This document shows, in pieces, positions 7,378-25,243 of a stretch of DNA of 26,214 bases. Each line of letters starts with the position of its first letter. The first letter of the stretch is position 1. The DNA is from a virus, in IMG/VR virus record IMGVR_UViG_3300028025_000812, positions 1 to 26,214 of that record; one strand, written 5' to 3'. A program made the translations under genes and the position numbers. The notes beneath the pieces are model-generated. The model searched no databases. It saw nothing but the letters and a program-made list of their open reading frames with translations, and was not told the origin of the DNA.

Positions 7378-7989
7378 CTATTTTTTCTCGGGCGCCTTCT
7401 TTTTCTTCGCCGATGGTTTCTTAGGTCTTACCTTTGACTCAAGGCGCTTCATTACTTCTTTACCTTCCATCCAAATATCCTTGTTGTCTAGTATACTACG
7501 GATTTCTGTCTCTGTCAAGAAGCCTTCATAGACTTTGCGAATAATGTTTTCTGACCACTTACGTTCATTGACAAGTTGATCATACATCTCACCGCCTTTA
7601 CCAAATGTACCACCAGAATAATTGTGGAACATGAAAAGACAATGCTCTGAAATTTCAAATCTTTGTCCCGACAAGAATAGCATTGTTGCGGCAGACATAC
7701 ATGCACCTTCTGCTGAACAAACTACCATTGCGCTAGACTCTGCGATTGCACGGATGAATTGAATTGTAGTAAACAAATCACCGCCAGGTGAGTTGATATG
7801 AATACGAATTACATCTGTCTCGTTTGCGTTTCGAATTGCATCGATACACCCAATGTATTTTTCGGGAGGTTCTATGGTGCCTGAAATGTAGATTGTGATA
7901 AGATTACCAATTGGTTTACAATTTATAATTTTATCGTCAAACAAATTTGCAAAAGGGTTTTTGGTTTCTTCATCCATTGTTTTGTTCAT
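7378..7989 (-). CDS. clpP-like: ClpP-like serine protease, 203 aa
   Basis: ClpP/crotonase fold with all key parts. Numbering from the ATG at 7989: oxyanion-hole segment HINSPGG (64-70), nucleophile S99 in GACMSAATM, H122 in FMFHNYSGG, and D171 in NKDIWMEGKEV. The C-terminus is a short lysine-rich tail (KKPSAKKKKAPEKK). ClpP forms barrel peptidases that need an AAA+ unfoldase; none is seen here, so it may use the host ClpX/ClpA or act alone. Starts at 8001 and 7977 are also possible; 7989 has GGAT at fair spacing. It overlaps the resolvase gene by about 20 bases. Confidence 0.88.
   Translation of the reverse strand: MNKTMDEETKNPFANLFDDKIINCKPIGNLITIYISGTIEPPEKYIGCIDAIRNANETDVIRIHINSPGGDLFTTIQFIRAIAESSAMVVCSAEGACMSAATMLFLSGQRFEISEHCLFMFHNYSGGTFGKGGEMYDQLVNERKWSENIIRKVYEGFLTETEIRSILDNKDIWMEGKEVMKRLESKVRPKKPSAKKKKAPEKK
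7490..7518 (-). promoter_or_regulatory. Sigma70 promoter inside the ClpP-like gene
   Basis: TTGACA (7513-7518), 17-base spacer, TATACT (7490-7495): 11 of 12 consensus positions on the minus strand, about 125 bases before the GT9-like gene. Confidence 0.55.
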
Positions 7990-8530
7990 TTTGATATCCA
8001 TATTTGCAAATATAATAAGCGTCAATCAAATCCGATGAAGGATTCCATTGTTTTTCAGTCATGTTCAATTCATTCTTTAATCGAATGGAATTTTCTTGTT
8101 CGAAGACCAATTGCATTTGTTCTTTATTTGAGTTGCCTTTACCTGTGGCGAACTTCTTAATTACTGTGGGTGCTATTGTCTTGAATTCAATTTGAAAATT
8201 CCAAAACCTATATTTCAATACGCCTGTATTCTCTGCAATGTTAAACACACGACCTTTCGATCCCATTGAATAGTCTTCAATGAAGACTTTCGTTTCTTCA
8301 TCTAGTTCTAAAATCCTATCGATAAAAAAACTAGAAATTATATCGTATCGTTCCATCTCATTCTTGTATTCAAAGTATTGCCCATTCACATTCTTGAATG
8401 AAACATCATACTTCTTCAACTGAGTTAGATAATGTAACTTACAATTCTCAAACTTAAACTCTCCGACTACATCATTATATAGACACATCGCAGGGGAAGT
8501 CATTGAGTAATCAATGCCTGCGTAGATCAT
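7970..8530 (-). CDS. RuvC-like Holliday-junction resolvase, 186 aa
   Basis: RNase H-fold resolvase of the RuvC type. The acidic active site is visible as D7 in AGIDYSMTSPA, E85 in VFIEDYSMG, and the closing pair D167/D170 in SSDLIDAYYI. KGNSNKEQM before that matches the conserved 'GKGxAxKEQ' segment of the family. It should cut branched DNA, clearing recombination and replication forks before packaging, in place of T4 gp49. The ATG at 8530 overlaps the zinc-ribbon stop as ATGA, so I prefer it to the TTG two codons upstream. Confidence 0.88.
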   Translation of the reverse strand: MIYAGIDYSMTSPAMCLYNDVVGEFKFENCKLHYLTQLKKYDVSFKNVNGQYFEYKNEMERYDIISSFFIDRILELDEETKVFIEDYSMGSKGRVFNIAENTGVLKYRFWNFQIEFKTIAPTVIKKFATGKGNSNKEQMQLVFEQENSIRLKNELNMTEKQWNPSSDLIDAYYICKYGYQNEQNNG

Positions 8531-20215: not shown

Positions 20216-21523
20216 TTATTTGTTGTCGCTAATCTCAGGGTCAATCTTAATTGGCTCTTGCTTACCGCTTAGTGTCTCGCCCTTTTTAACTGCTTTCTGC
20301 TTTGCGGATGCTTCTTTGCCGTTGTCTTCTTTTTTGTCTTCTTTTTCGTTGATGGATACATTACCAACTGTTTTCATTTTGATGTTGGTTTTGATTCCCA
20401 TCTTTGCAAAAGCCTTTTCGAATTTCTTTGCAAGCGGCTTGCCTCCAGACTTAAACTCTGGATATTCTTTCTTCTCGTCTTCTTCTTTTCGCAATGATTG
20501 CTGTTGCTTTGACATTGCTTCGCGTTCTTTTTCATGCTTCAAACGCAATTGAGTAGACTTGAGCCTTGCTTGCGCTCTTTTGACTGCATCGGTTGCATCG
20601 CCAGTTCCGCGAATAGAGGTGCCACCACCCTCTGCTTCTTTAATATCTTTTTTAAACTTTGTAGCAAGCCACTTCTTTGTGCCTTCTGGTTCTAATTTAT
20701 TTGCTGGAGTTTTTACATCTTCTGGATGTTTCTCTTCAGCCTTCATCTTTTTTCTAGCGGCTATTGCGGCCAGTTTTGCACGTTTTGCGGCGGCTTCTTT
20801 ATCGTGTGGTTTGTCGCTTGACCTAACATCTTTGTCGTATGCGTCTTCTTCTTTCATATCTTTTGGCTTCTTACCAGCCTTCTTCATAGCGATTGCAATA
20901 GCGGCTTGCTGTGCTGGTGATGCGGCTTCATTTTTAGGTACACAATTTGGTACCATCTTGTCGCCCTTCTTTTTCATACCCTCTTGTTTGTGAGTATCCC
21001 AACATGCTTCTTCTATAGATTCAATGTACATGTTCAATTCATACTTTTGATTGTCCATATTGTACACTTGAAGGTGCAATGCTTTCTTAGATTCTTTACC
21101 ATCTTTTTTTAACTTAATAGAGAATGAATTTGTTTTACCAGATGATGGCTTCTTAGGACCAGTAGCAACTTTGTCGTGCCAGTCATCCATGTCTACTTCA
21201 AAGCCACGCTTCTCTGCTTGTTTGATAGCCGTCTGTACTGCTGAAGAATAATCTTTGTGATAAATTTCATATCCACTTGCAGACTTTGCTTCTTCAAGGT
21301 CCACTTCTTCTTTTTTCATAGCGGCGCGATTCACACGATTCTGTGCAAGTCCAGAAACGAATTTAATCTTTGCACCCGCAAGTGATTTAAGATTGTCAAT
21401 ATGCATTTTGTCAAGCATAGCAATTAATTGCTTATACTCTGGACCTGACGGATCGATTGTGCTAATCTTTCCGTATTCATCTCGCATCTTAGCGAGTTGT
21501 TGTGATGTGAATGCGTTTTTCAT
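20216..21523 (-). CDS. Charged mosaic protein, possibly head-internal, 435 aa
   Basis: 435 residues, about a third Lys/Glu/Ala. An N-terminal helical domain (AFTSQQLAKMRDEYGKI) is followed by a folded alpha/beta module at about 80-170 (SASGYEIYHKDYSSAVQTAI through LHLQVYNMDNQKYELNMYIE). Next comes a short motif (CWDTHKQEGMKKKGDKMVPN, then C), and from 200 on long Lys/Ala/Glu-rich coiled or disordered sequence. Similar mosaics occur in uncultured marine myoviruses near head genes, without function. Three L/I-x-E-A sites (76-79, 170-173, 294-297) match the T4 head-protease rule, so it may be a scaffold or internal protein processed during maturation; this is inference. Confidence 0.8.
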   Translation of the reverse strand: MKNAFTSQQLAKMRDEYGKISTIDPSGPEYKQLIAMLDKMHIDNLKSLAGAKIKFVSGLAQNRVNRAAMKKEEVDLEEAKSASGYEIYHKDYSSAVQTAIKQAEKRGFEVDMDDWHDKVATGPKKPSSGKTNSFSIKLKKDGKESKKALHLQVYNMDNQKYELNMYIESIEEACWDTHKQEGMKKKGDKMVPNCVPKNEAASPAQQAAIAIAMKKAGKKPKDMKEEDAYDKDVRSSDKPHDKEAAAKRAKLAAIAARKKMKAEEKHPEDVKTPANKLEPEGTKKWLATKFKKDIKEAEGGGTSIRGTGDATDAVKRAQARLKSTQLRLKHEKEREAMSKQQQSLRKEEDEKKEYPEFKSGGKPLAKKFEKAFAKMGIKTNIKMKTVGNVSINEKEDKKEDNGKEASAKQKAVKKGETLSGKQEPIKIDPEISDNK

Positions 21524-21993: not shown

Positions 21994-22278
21994 TTATTCC
22001 TCTACTATTTTTAAGGTTAAATTTCCGGTGCCTTTTATAATTCTGTGATAGGTTTCTGCTTTTATGAAATACACTTTGTTCTTTTCCAAGATAATCGGTA
22101 GTGCATCATCATATTGCAATAACCATCCGCTTCCTTCTAATACATGTACGCTTCGATCCTTTTTGTCGCGATGCCATATAAGTTCCATTGGGTCAACAGA
22201 TTCATCGAACACTCGAACGAATCCATCATTGCTCTGATTATCAGAGTATGGGTTACCAATAGAAGTTTCCACCGCCAC
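21994..22278 (-). CDS. Cupin-like small conserved phage protein, 94 aa
   Basis: 94 residues: DPMELIWHRDKKDRSVHVLE, GSGWLLQYDDALPIILEKN, VYFIKAETYHRIIKGTGNL. The alternating strands, the 'P--TYHRI-KG-G-L-L-I' end and the lone histidines resemble a single cupin barrel; T4-like phages carry this small protein widely, function unknown. No ATG is suitable: the start is a GTG (22278, or GTG at 22272) with AGGA upstream, and it lies 26 bases inside the end of the 974-residue gene. Confidence 0.8.
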   Translation of the reverse strand: MAVETSIGNPYSDNQSNDGFVRVFDESVDPMELIWHRDKKDRSVHVLEGSGWLLQYDDALPIILEKNKVYFIKAETYHRIIKGTGNLTLKIVEE

Positions 22279-25177
22279 TCAATCCTAGTTGTTTTGCATA
22301 ACGTGGTGTGTTGCAAGCCCAATACGCGGCACTCGTTCTATCTTTTTGCATACTGCATTGATGACGCGCCGCGAATGATTTTCTTGCTTCAGGATCATTC
22401 AATTTAACTGATAGACCTGTAGTATCGCCCCATGTGACTTTCTTCACACCACCATCTGGTTTACGAACATACACATAAAATTTCTTTGGACCGCCACGCT
22501 TTGGCTTACCAATCTCAATATCTTTTTCTTCCTCTTCTGCAATCATTGGGCAGTCAAGAGGAACAGGTTGACCTTCTTCGGTGAATGCAAATGTACCAAT
22601 GTCTGTATCTTCAATCAAAGATTTATCCATACCTTGTAGTTCTAGTTTGCCTTCTTTGTAGAGTTTTCTTGCTTCACGATACAATTCAAAATACATTTTT
22701 GAACCAACACGGAATACATTCTCTGTCAATGGAATTTTATTGTCAGTATGCCAATCAATAGCAGAATGCACATCTGTGTCTTCTTTTACTTCGTGTGCGC
22801 GTTTGATCTTCTCTAAATTTTGTTGAAACAAATCATTCAGATCGCCTTTTAGATGATCAGCAAGAGTTACGCTTGTAGGTTGACCTGGCGTATCTTCTGC
22901 ATACTTCTTACGCAACTCATCTGTGCCCCATTCAAGAGTTTCTGCAAACTCTGAAAATGCTTCGTTCTTGTCGCCTGCTTTAGATGCTAAGTCTTTATCT
23001 GCACCACCCCATGTGCCTTTGCCTTTGGTGATGAATGAGTTCACTCGCGCAAACGCCCATTGCTGTGGCGTTGTTCCTGGACGATGACCACCTTGCCATG
23101 CCGCCATACCACGATCATAAACTTTCTTGAGAATGCTGTATGCAATGCCAGACTTTTCTGCTTTCTTTTTCAAGCCTTCAATCTCTTCATGTAATGCGGC
23201 GTAAACTTCGTATAAGTCTTCGCCCATCTCTTCTTTTGACATATCAGACAATGCTTCGTACATGTCTGTATCGCTCATTTCAAACTCTGCATCTTCATCG
23301 TCATAAACATCATCACCTTCTTCGTCATCGTAATCATAATCGTCTTCGAATTCTAGGTAATCTGTAACGGCTTCAATGTAATCAACTGCTTTGGTGATCT
23401 TTGAAAGTACCCATGCTTCTGGCTCTTCATCCATTTCAGATAGAATGTCTGCAAGCATTTCTGCGTCTTGAATAAGATTGGCTACTTCAATCTGCGCCAT
23501 CTCTAATCCATCTAATTCTTCGTAATCGTCATACTCGCCCTTTTCAACAATGGCTTGTACTTCTTCGCTGAATTCTTTACCAACAAGTTTTGTGCCTGTT
23601 ACACCTTGAACTAATGCCCATGCGCGTTTGTAGTCTTTCATGTTCAATAATTTCTTGAACATATCAACTTGGCGTGGGTCTGCTTTCTGATAAAACTTAG
23701 CAAGTTCCATGATGCCAATGTTACCAACATATGCGGCTTCATTCAGTTCATCAAACTCTTCTTTTCTCAAAGACATTTTTGCAAGATTGAACAACTGATC
23801 TTGGCTTGTCACCATGTCGAGCAAAGTAGATAATAGATTTTGTGTTGCTTGTCTTTCAGATGTGGATAGTGTATCGCCAGCATCAATCTTAGACATTGCT
23901 TTCTTAATTGTTGAAAGTAGAGTCTTGTCTGCAAGTCCCAAGCGAACTAATTGATCCAAGCGAGAAATTTCTTTCTTACCAATTTCTTCTCCAAACATTT
24001 GCTTGAATTTTAGAGTGTGCTTAGACTGAGGCATACCTTTTTCTCTTGCCTCTTTATCACCTGGTGCATCTGCGTATGCAGACTTATCAGAATCAGACTT
24101 TGGACCCATGCGCTTGAAATGTGCATCGCGTCTTTCTTTTGTGTCTTTGTCTAATCCTTTGTAGTACTTGCTTGGTTGTGTACCTTCTTTACCACCAACG
24201 TGTTTATCTTGTGGCAGTTCTGGCTTCTCAAACAATGCAACGAATGATTCGTTCGTTCTCGCTTGATTTTGTTTTCTTTGAATTTCTGCTCTGCGTACTT
24301 GAGGTAATAGACGAGAGCCAATCTTACCAACTACGCTCTTCATCTTATCGATCTTTTTGTCGATTGAAATTTTCTGTGAAGGTGATAGGTTTGCATATGC
24401 TCTACCACCACCAATTCTACGCTTTAAGAATGTGACTGCTTGGCGTCTTGCTCTCTTGGTAAGGGTTGGTTGATTTGCGAAACGGCGCATTGCACGTTCT
24501 CTTGCGCGTAACATTTTTGCTTTTAAACGTCTTACCTGCATGGCGCGTTTTCTACGCCCTTGCAATGAGAGTGCTTCATCCATTTCTAACTCCTCTTTTA
24601 ATCCGCCGATATACTTATCTAACAATTTTTTTACCTTTTTTGGATTGGTTGCTTTAGGGTACAAGTCGCCTACAATCTTTTCTCTATTCGTGTCATCCGC
24701 TTCAGAATACATCTTGCGAACTTGACTGCCTGAGTAAACTACTTCACCAGCAACGGAAAAATCTTTCTTCTTTGTAACGAAAATGTAACCATGACCTGTC
24801 TTAGGATCAAATGGTTTGCAATCTTTTAAATTCTTGAACGGCTGATAATACGCTGGCGAACCATCCTTCTTAGTGTAATTAACAGGATCGCGTTCACTTC
24901 GCACAAGAATCAAAATGTCTTTTTCAGGATCATACTTGCGTAAAATCTCTTCTGGATTTACGGGTTGTTTGACCTGCACAAAGTCATCCTTAACGCCGGC
25001 TTGTTGCGCTAAGAATTTTTTATCTGTAAAGGGAATTGGTCTTACTTTAGTGTCGTTGCTTGATGCAACATAAAAGTCGGCAGACGGAAAGGCGCGTTTG
25101 GCTTCCTCATAACTGCTCATATGACCTTGATGAAACGGCTGAAATCCACCGCCGTAAACTACAATAACTTTTCTCAT
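22253..25177 (-). CDS. 974-aa mosaic protein: nucleotidyltransferase domain fused to Arg-rich and phage-specific modules
   Basis: Residues 1-190 form an HxGH nucleotidyltransferase (NMN/pantetheine-phosphate adenylyltransferase type): VYGGGFQPFHQGHM with H16/H19, and the nucleotide-binding VYSGSQVRKM (148-156). Residues 205-310 are an Arg/Lys-rich helical block (RRKRAMQVRRLKAKMLRARE). Phage-specific modules follow: 335-400, a helical unit at 400-472, and a very acidic stretch at 608-632. The unit near 668-735 (SGIAYSILKKVYDRGMAAWQ, GHRPGTTPQQWAFARVNSF) is what I recall as DUF5824. The C-terminal module (892-974) ends GLSGGGNFYW. An exact late promoter and AAGGAAAA precede the ATG, so it is a late, possibly head-packaged protein. 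The substrate of the N-terminal domain cannot be told. Confidence 0.85.
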   Translation of the reverse strand: MRKVIVVYGGGFQPFHQGHMSSYEEAKRAFPSADFYVASSNDTKVRPIPFTDKKFLAQQAGVKDDFVQVKQPVNPEEILRKYDPEKDILILVRSERDPVNYTKKDGSPAYYQPFKNLKDCKPFDPKTGHGYIFVTKKKDFSVAGEVVYSGSQVRKMYSEADDTNREKIVGDLYPKATNPKKVKKLLDKYIGGLKEELEMDEALSLQGRRKRAMQVRRLKAKMLRARERAMRRFANQPTLTKRARRQAVTFLKRRIGGGRAYANLSPSQKISIDKKIDKMKSVVGKIGSRLLPQVRRAEIQRKQNQARTNESFVALFEKPELPQDKHVGGKEGTQPSKYYKGLDKDTKERRDAHFKRMGPKSDSDKSAYADAPGDKEAREKGMPQSKHTLKFKQMFGEEIGKKEISRLDQLVRLGLADKTLLSTIKKAMSKIDAGDTLSTSERQATQNLLSTLLDMVTSQDQLFNLAKMSLRKEEFDELNEAAYVGNIGIMELAKFYQKADPRQVDMFKKLLNMKDYKRAWALVQGVTGTKLVGKEFSEEVQAIVEKGEYDDYEELDGLEMAQIEVANLIQDAEMLADILSEMDEEPEAWVLSKITKAVDYIEAVTDYLEFEDDYDYDDEEGDDVYDDEDAEFEMSDTDMYEALSDMSKEEMGEDLYEVYAALHEEIEGLKKKAEKSGIAYSILKKVYDRGMAAWQGGHRPGTTPQQWAFARVNSFITKGKGTWGGADKDLASKAGDKNEAFSEFAETLEWGTDELRKKYAEDTPGQPTSVTLADHLKGDLNDLFQQNLEKIKRAHEVKEDTDVHSAIDWHTDNKIPLTENVFRVGSKMYFELYREARKLYKEGKLELQGMDKSLIEDTDIGTFAFTEEGQPVPLDCPMIAEEEEKDIEIGKPKRGGPKKFYVYVRKPDGGVKKVTWGDTTGLSVKLNDPEARKSFAARHQCSMQKDRTSAAYWACNTPRYAKQLGLSGGGNFYW

Positions 25178-25235
25178 GGAGTTTTCCTTAGACTTATCCC
25201 TTACAGGTTTGCCGTAGCCTAACTGCGTTACATCT

Positions 25236-25243
25236 TATTTATA
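25236..25243 (-). promoter_or_regulatory. T4-type late promoter of the 974-aa gene
   Basis: Exact TATAAATA in the 72-base gap, about 59 bases before the ATG at 25177. It is embedded in a short inverted repeat (ATCTTA-TAAA-TAAGAT). Confidence 0.7.

Follow-up and report, generated by a model that had tools for sequence, protein, structure and literature searches.

In bacteriophage T4, internal proteins enter the prohead by way of an N-terminal capsid-targeting sequence of about 10 residues and are cut by gp21 after L/I-x-E (PMC9026906); the leaders compared here are those of IPIII, MKTYQEFIAE/A, and IPI, MKTFKEF...ITE/A, with the slash marking a cut or proposed joint. Alt and the internal proteins IPI-III are late, head-targeted, cut at L/I-x-E, and injected. 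In cyanophages, S-SCSM1 gp281, S-CREM2 gp154, and S-SZBM1_140 have been detected in purified virions by mass spectrometry (PMC9602691, PMC10665884, PMC9146016). A role as nicotinamide mononucleotide (NMN) adenylyltransferase (NMNAT) was proposed together with a caution about possible carry-over in CsCl preparations (PMC9602691, PMC10665884), and the function of S-SZBM1_140 was left open (PMC9146016). A packaged NMNAT-like enzyme of cyanophages is already known, so a packaged enzyme of this kind is not new in itself. The name polyvalent proteins has been given to large phage proteins of several domains that are believed to enter the host together with the DNA (Iyer et al. 2017, PMC5512222), and phage NadM, according to a published report, is invariably accompanied by NadV (PMC9503650).

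The gene considered here lies in the window, the whole 26,214-base stretch of DNA analysed, which is an IMG/VR virus record and a fragment. It is best explained as a late gene of a T4-superfamily phage, probably encoding a head-targeted polyprotein with an active, NadM-like first domain that is cut by a gp21-type protease and injected with the DNA. The family resembles T4 Alt and the internal proteins in that leaders of its members match the IPIII capsid-targeting sequence; however, T4 combines one leader with one payload, while the window protein apparently carries several payloads per chain, and it has a nucleotidyltransferase (NTase) rather than an ADP-ribosyltransferase. With the cyanophage NMNAT-like cytidylyltransferases (PHROG 395/3041) it shares the HIGH domain, DUF6267 next door in many members, and a T4-type leader in the family, but its domain is a distant one of another subfamily, with about 20% identity by profile; eight more modules follow it in the chain, and there is no N-terminal leader. 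The cyanophage branch is homologous to the window NTase (hhalign probability 94.8%, E 5.5e-8), and the window domain alone matches phrog_395 with E 0.0098 and phrog_3041 with E 0.026. As in polyvalent proteins, several disparate domains occur in one polypeptide, and further relatives have the same NTase fused to zeta-toxin/AAA kinases, to an HD_4 domain, or, with weak scores, to GNAT, M91 peptidase-like, and ParB-like domains; changing partners of this sort are what one would expect if the protein carries variable effectors. Unlike polyvalent proteins, the window protein has no zincin-like peptidase and few canonical polyvalent domains, and its processing would be by a T4-type prohead protease at L-x-E joints.

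The gene and its nucleotidyltransferase domain

The open reading frame (22253-25177, minus strand) runs for 974 codons without an internal stop and has the order NTase-ARG-M3-M4-M5-M6-DUF5824-M9-CT, an architecture shared with L012, L013, and L014, relatives on independent contigs. Other window genes encode an RNase H-like exonuclease, a RuvC-like resolvase, NrdA/NrdB, ThyX, a primase, a ClpP-like protease, and a 5'-deoxyribonucleotidase, a content consistent with a T4-superfamily phage, and the gene order downstream of the 974-codon frame is similar to that of Methylophilales phage Melnitz and Pelagibacter phage HTVC008M. A serine peptidase, ClpP-like or head-maturation-protease-like, is encoded at 7378-8025 (minus strand). 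The exact late promoter that the sequence-only reading placed ahead of the gene is there: the T4-type element TATAAATA lies at 25236-25243 (minus strand), 58 nt before the ATG, and recurs at a similar distance (58-70 nt) ahead of this gene in L011, L013, L032, and L034-L038. The number of exact copies in the window (three, with 1.7 expected) is not above chance. An AAGGA ribosome-binding site precedes the ATG (25185-25189, minus strand). An in-frame stop just upstream of the ATG rules out an upstream start, and with it a hidden N-terminal leader.

Residues 1-196 (24590-25177, minus strand) score above the cut-offs of both PF01467, CTP_transf_like (31.5 bits, cut-off 21), and TIGR00125 (31.2 bits, cut-off 27.7). 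The HxGH signature, YGGGFQPFHQGH, occupies residues 8-19 (25121-25156, minus strand), and the second nucleotide-binding motif, SGSQVR, residues 149-154 (24716-24733, minus strand). Among 66 relatives, G10, F12, Q13, P14, F15, H19, D97, and R154 are invariant, and H16, G18, and S149 are conserved in at least 90%. The AlphaFold2 model, with the 66 relatives as alignment, has pLDDT 94.2 and pTM 0.89, and in Foldseek its best matches among solved structures are NadD, phosphopantetheine adenylyltransferase (PPAT), and NadM, with E 5e-6 and weaker and TM about 0.5. The HxGH motif, the Rossmann-like fold, and the distal SxxxR motif that define the PF01467 superfamily are all present, and dN/dS of the domain against L013 is 0.06, indicating strong purifying selection. 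By signature and predicted fold, then, the first domain is an intact HIGH-superfamily nucleotidyltransferase. The complete-looking HxGH signature and the SGSxxR-type loop that had been read from the first 190 residues are thus confirmed.

Two observations on the evolution of the domain may be added. In a comparison with L012, dS is 0.008 for the window NTase but 0.21-0.28 for the modules from ARG to M6, a step that points to recent recombination with a junction close to the edge of the domain. In the homologue from Microcystis phage Mel-JY01 (L009:5926-7845) the HxGH motif is lost (GRFQPMGIHH), possibly giving a natural inactive form.

Modules and their joints

Searches against phages and virus contigs divided the roughly 780 residues behind the NTase into eight modules, the limits of which were partly drawn by eye. 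ARG (residues 197-310; 24248-24589, minus strand; phrog_23027) is a basic helical module with 33 K+R and 8 D+E, and occurs as stand-alone genes of 123-133 amino acids in HTVC008M, C48C1, and Melnitz. M3 (residues 318-400; 23978-24226, minus strand) is common to the cytidyltransferase genes of Melnitz, HTVC008M, and C48C1; it is followed by M4 and by M5 (residues 481-546; 23540-23737, minus strand), which forms stand-alone genes of 112-117 amino acids in L027 and L019. M6 (residues 547-664; 23186-23539, minus strand) is very acidic, with 46 D+E and 3 K+R, and ends in LHE. The DUF5824 module (residues 665-740; 22958-23185, minus strand; PF19141, E 2e-18) is a stand-alone gene of 90 amino acids in C48C1, M9 (residues 813-880; 22538-22741, minus strand) is common to Melnitz gp18 and immuto gp171, and CT (residues 881-974; 22256-22537, minus strand; phrog_7595) has stand-alone genes in HTVC008M and C48C1. 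The full order is found in four contigs, the window included, and others have subsets; in L034, DUF6267 is fused ahead of the NTase in a protein of 1,379 amino acids. The sequence-only reading had described an arginine-rich helical block directly behind the enzyme and a fusion to a phage mosaic protein; ARG corresponds to the former, and the separate small genes for ARG, M5, DUF5824, and CT in other phages bear out the latter. A second mosaic protein is encoded at 20216-21523 (minus strand); its joint EVDLEE/AKSASG matches PEMDE/AKSSTG of Melnitz gp20, and it is probably a further head-packaged chain.

The module starts share a local sequence feature. In all 23 distinct aligned cases, fused and stand-alone (M5 4/4, CT 8/8, DUF5824 6/6, M3 5/5), [LIVM]xE stands directly before the module, as against 1.7% at random positions of the same proteins, the joint sequences being phylogenetically related. 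The predicted joint before M5, FDELNE/AAY (residues 475-480; 23738-23755, minus strand), has LQE/AAY (L027) and LKE/ASY (L019) at the same point of the stand-alone proteins, so that EEFDELNE/AAYVGN of the window can be set beside the N-terminus of L027, MDFRDFKELQE/AAYAGN. At the M3 joint, L038 has MFEEFIVE/KP, L036 has IFAEFIIE/KP, and the window has SFVALFE/KP, segments that look like leaders retained in the chain after gene fusion. Across all linkers the density of L-x-E is not raised (4, with 3.3 in shuffles), so the signal rests on the exact joints in related sequences. A gp21-type protease (PF03420) is found in 5 of 12 larger relatives, the window being a 26-kb fragment; one of the five, G003, has an NTase gene (L037) of nearly the window architecture. 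The major capsid protein gp23 is found in 11 of 14 larger relatives (10 over the cut-off), and its propeptides appear by eye to end in LSE/T, LNE/A, and LYE/S, suggesting that the protease specificity is probably conserved. On this comparison, the module joints look like prohead-protease cutting sites.

Several other partners of the NTase have been noted in relatives. In L009, L010, L063, L074, L075, and L078 the NTase is joined, on either side, to a region bearing RNA-ligase-like motifs (KxDGxN ... EGxV ... YKLTG), in which a Pfam search recognised no ligase. A zeta-toxin/AAA_33 P-loop kinase is fused to the NTase in L015, L088, and L095, and an apparent counterpart adjoins it in HTVC008M (L004:7217-7879, by eye); kinase and ligase-like partner could form a packaged RNA/DNA end-repair set. 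In L055:5971-8433 the NTase is fused to an HD_4 domain, a type known from (p)ppGpp hydrolases.

Capsid-targeting leaders

N-terminal leaders of T4 type occur on NTases close to that of the window, including MKFSRFIQEAKG, MKFRDFIQEAT, MRFKEFLSEKA, and MKSFKQAFSTSITEAK. With a strict pattern fixed from T4 (IPIII-like N-termini), a leader was found on 17 of 56 distinct window-type NTases, about two-thirds of these enzymes being without one; the controls gave 26 of 569 other long reading frames (4.6%) and 0.27% of shuffled N-termini, and about half of the 26 are DUF6267 proteins encoded next to the NTase, or their counterparts at that position. In the cyanophage branch, 58 of 66 NTases have a leader, typically MKSFFQFLSEA, a proportion biased upward because the loci were ranked by similarity to a leader-containing query. 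All three virion-detected homologues carry one (S-SCSM1 MKSFLQFLKEA, S-CREM2 MKNFSSFLTEA, S-SZBM1 MRFRQFIIEA), and four neighbours of the S-SCSM1 gene are likewise annotated as virion proteins. The earlier analogy to packaged T4 Alt gains from these virion-detected homologues and from the T4-type leaders on family members. No mention of such a leader on cyanophage NTases was found in the accessible parts of PMC9602691, PMC10665884, and PMC9146016 or by literature search, which also gave no usable virion proteomics for the phiM12 and CBB homologues.

At the N-terminus, neither the window copy nor its nearest kin (L011-L014) carry a leader; they begin MRKVIVV or MKKVIVV. The window protein does have an internal leader-like segment with an L-x-E site, FVALFE/K (residues 312-317; 24227-24244, minus strand), to be compared with FEEFIVE/K and FAEFIIE/K in kin and YQEFIAE/A in T4 IPIII. 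Internal leader-like motifs in leaderless NTases are not clearly enriched (15, with 9.0 +/- 3.2 expected), and other large reading frames are enriched too. Packaging of the window protein is thus inferred from its relatives, its modules, their joints, and this one internal segment.

DUF6267 (410 amino acids) adjoins the NTase or is fused to it in many relatives (L011:3909-5138, L013:5422-6651, and, fused, L034:4732-8871), often with a capsid-targeting-like leader of its own (MLGFKDYLIEQ). Its K-W-D-G, E-G-x-V, and V-K-L motifs resemble those of covalent nucleotidyltransferases (ligases); its AlphaFold2 model has pLDDT 87, and Foldseek gave no significant match for the fold, the weak ones including NAD+-dependent DNA ligase adenylation domains.

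Competing explanations and significance

The head-loading signal of the relatives and the protease-like joints suggest that the window protein is, in all probability, a polyprotein of the virus head that goes into the host along with the DNA. From sequence comparison we infer its packaging, cleavage, injection, and substrate as follows. The polyprotein would be expressed late from the T4-type promoter and enter the prohead core, where a gp21-type protease would cut at [L/I]-x-E sites between modules; the products, an enzyme, a basic DNA-binding-like protein, DUF5824, CT, and others, would be injected together with the DNA, each as a separate small protein, with the first domain acting as a nicotinamide/nicotinate-mononucleotide-adenylyltransferase-like (NadM-like) enzyme. 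That the gene instead encodes a late cytoplasmic metabolic enzyme, an auxiliary metabolic gene product with long disordered and adaptor tails, is unlikely. The absence of an N-terminal leader from the window copy would suit such an enzyme, and the fusion would then be accidental and the homologues in virions contamination, in line with the possible carry-over named in PMC9602691 and PMC10665884; however, T4-type leaders occur in the family and none of the virion-detected homologues examined is without one, protease motifs stand at the module joints, virion proteins neighbour the S-SCSM1 gene, and detection was in several independent phages (PMC9602691, PMC10665884, PMC9146016).

What the enzyme acts on is a separate matter. 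In a profile search the top matches are Francisella NMN adenylyltransferase (2qjt) and M. jannaschii NMNAT (1f9a), and 36-40 of the 66 relatives match NMNAT models, compared with 21 for CoaD, yet the window copy falls below the curated cut-offs of the specific NMNAT models (best equivalog TIGR00482, 19.6 bits against 112), so adenylyl transfer to NMN or nicotinate mononucleotide (NaMN) is a best guess with roughly even chances. The family resembles NadM/NadR in fold, in the GRFQPFHKGH-type motif of relatives, and in the SGT/SGSxxR motif, but differs in lacking a Nudix domain, in those cut-offs, and in that its relatives are without NadV; a P-loop kinase-like domain (zeta-toxin/AAA) is present in some of these relatives. 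A nucleotidyl transfer of another kind (phosphopantetheine adenylyl-, FAD-, or CTP-dependent glycerol-phosphate or choline-phosphate), which would concern the substrate and not the packaging, is a less probable choice: PPAT and NadD appear in the fold and profile searches and the best single-sequence match, a weak one, is a choline-phosphate cytidylyltransferase, but NMN adenylyltransferases come first by profile and NMNAT models are matched by more relatives. The suggestion that the enzyme counters NAD-depleting defences, being delivered early and rebuilding NAD as in phage NAD salvage by NadM with NadV, draws on the nearest families being NadM/NMNAT; it is improbable and was not borne out, since NadV (PF04095), the reported constant partner of phage NadM, was found in 0 of 14 large relatives (the window itself being a fragment), and the host would have to supply NMN. 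Least probable of all is a catalytically idle domain kept as part of the prohead core or scaffold; the association of these NTases with head-targeting signals would fit it, but the catalytic motifs are invariant and under strong purifying selection, and HxGH is lost in just one distant homologue, that of Mel-JY01.

With the head-targeted polyprotein as the preferred reading, what is new, as far as could be found, is that the enzyme family is linked to T4-type targeting leaders and that it has a form that is likely a gp21-processed polyprotein. A wider proposal, put forward tentatively and somewhat short of even odds, is that T4-superfamily phages use a polyprotein strategy for injected effectors, in which one late mRNA would supply head-targeted modules that are cut inside the capsid into several mature proteins, with an NAD-synthesis-type enzyme first; the genes would fuse and split freely between phages and the cutting sites persist. 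A further question is why a virus should inject an enzyme that makes NAD. The annotated 'cytidyltransferase' of hundreds of T4-like phages (556 phage records) becomes a testable injected effector, and the suggested sequence rule, MK-x-F-x-x-F-[LI]-x-E leaders together with [LI]xE joints, could reveal packaged proteins of abundant marine and freshwater phages.
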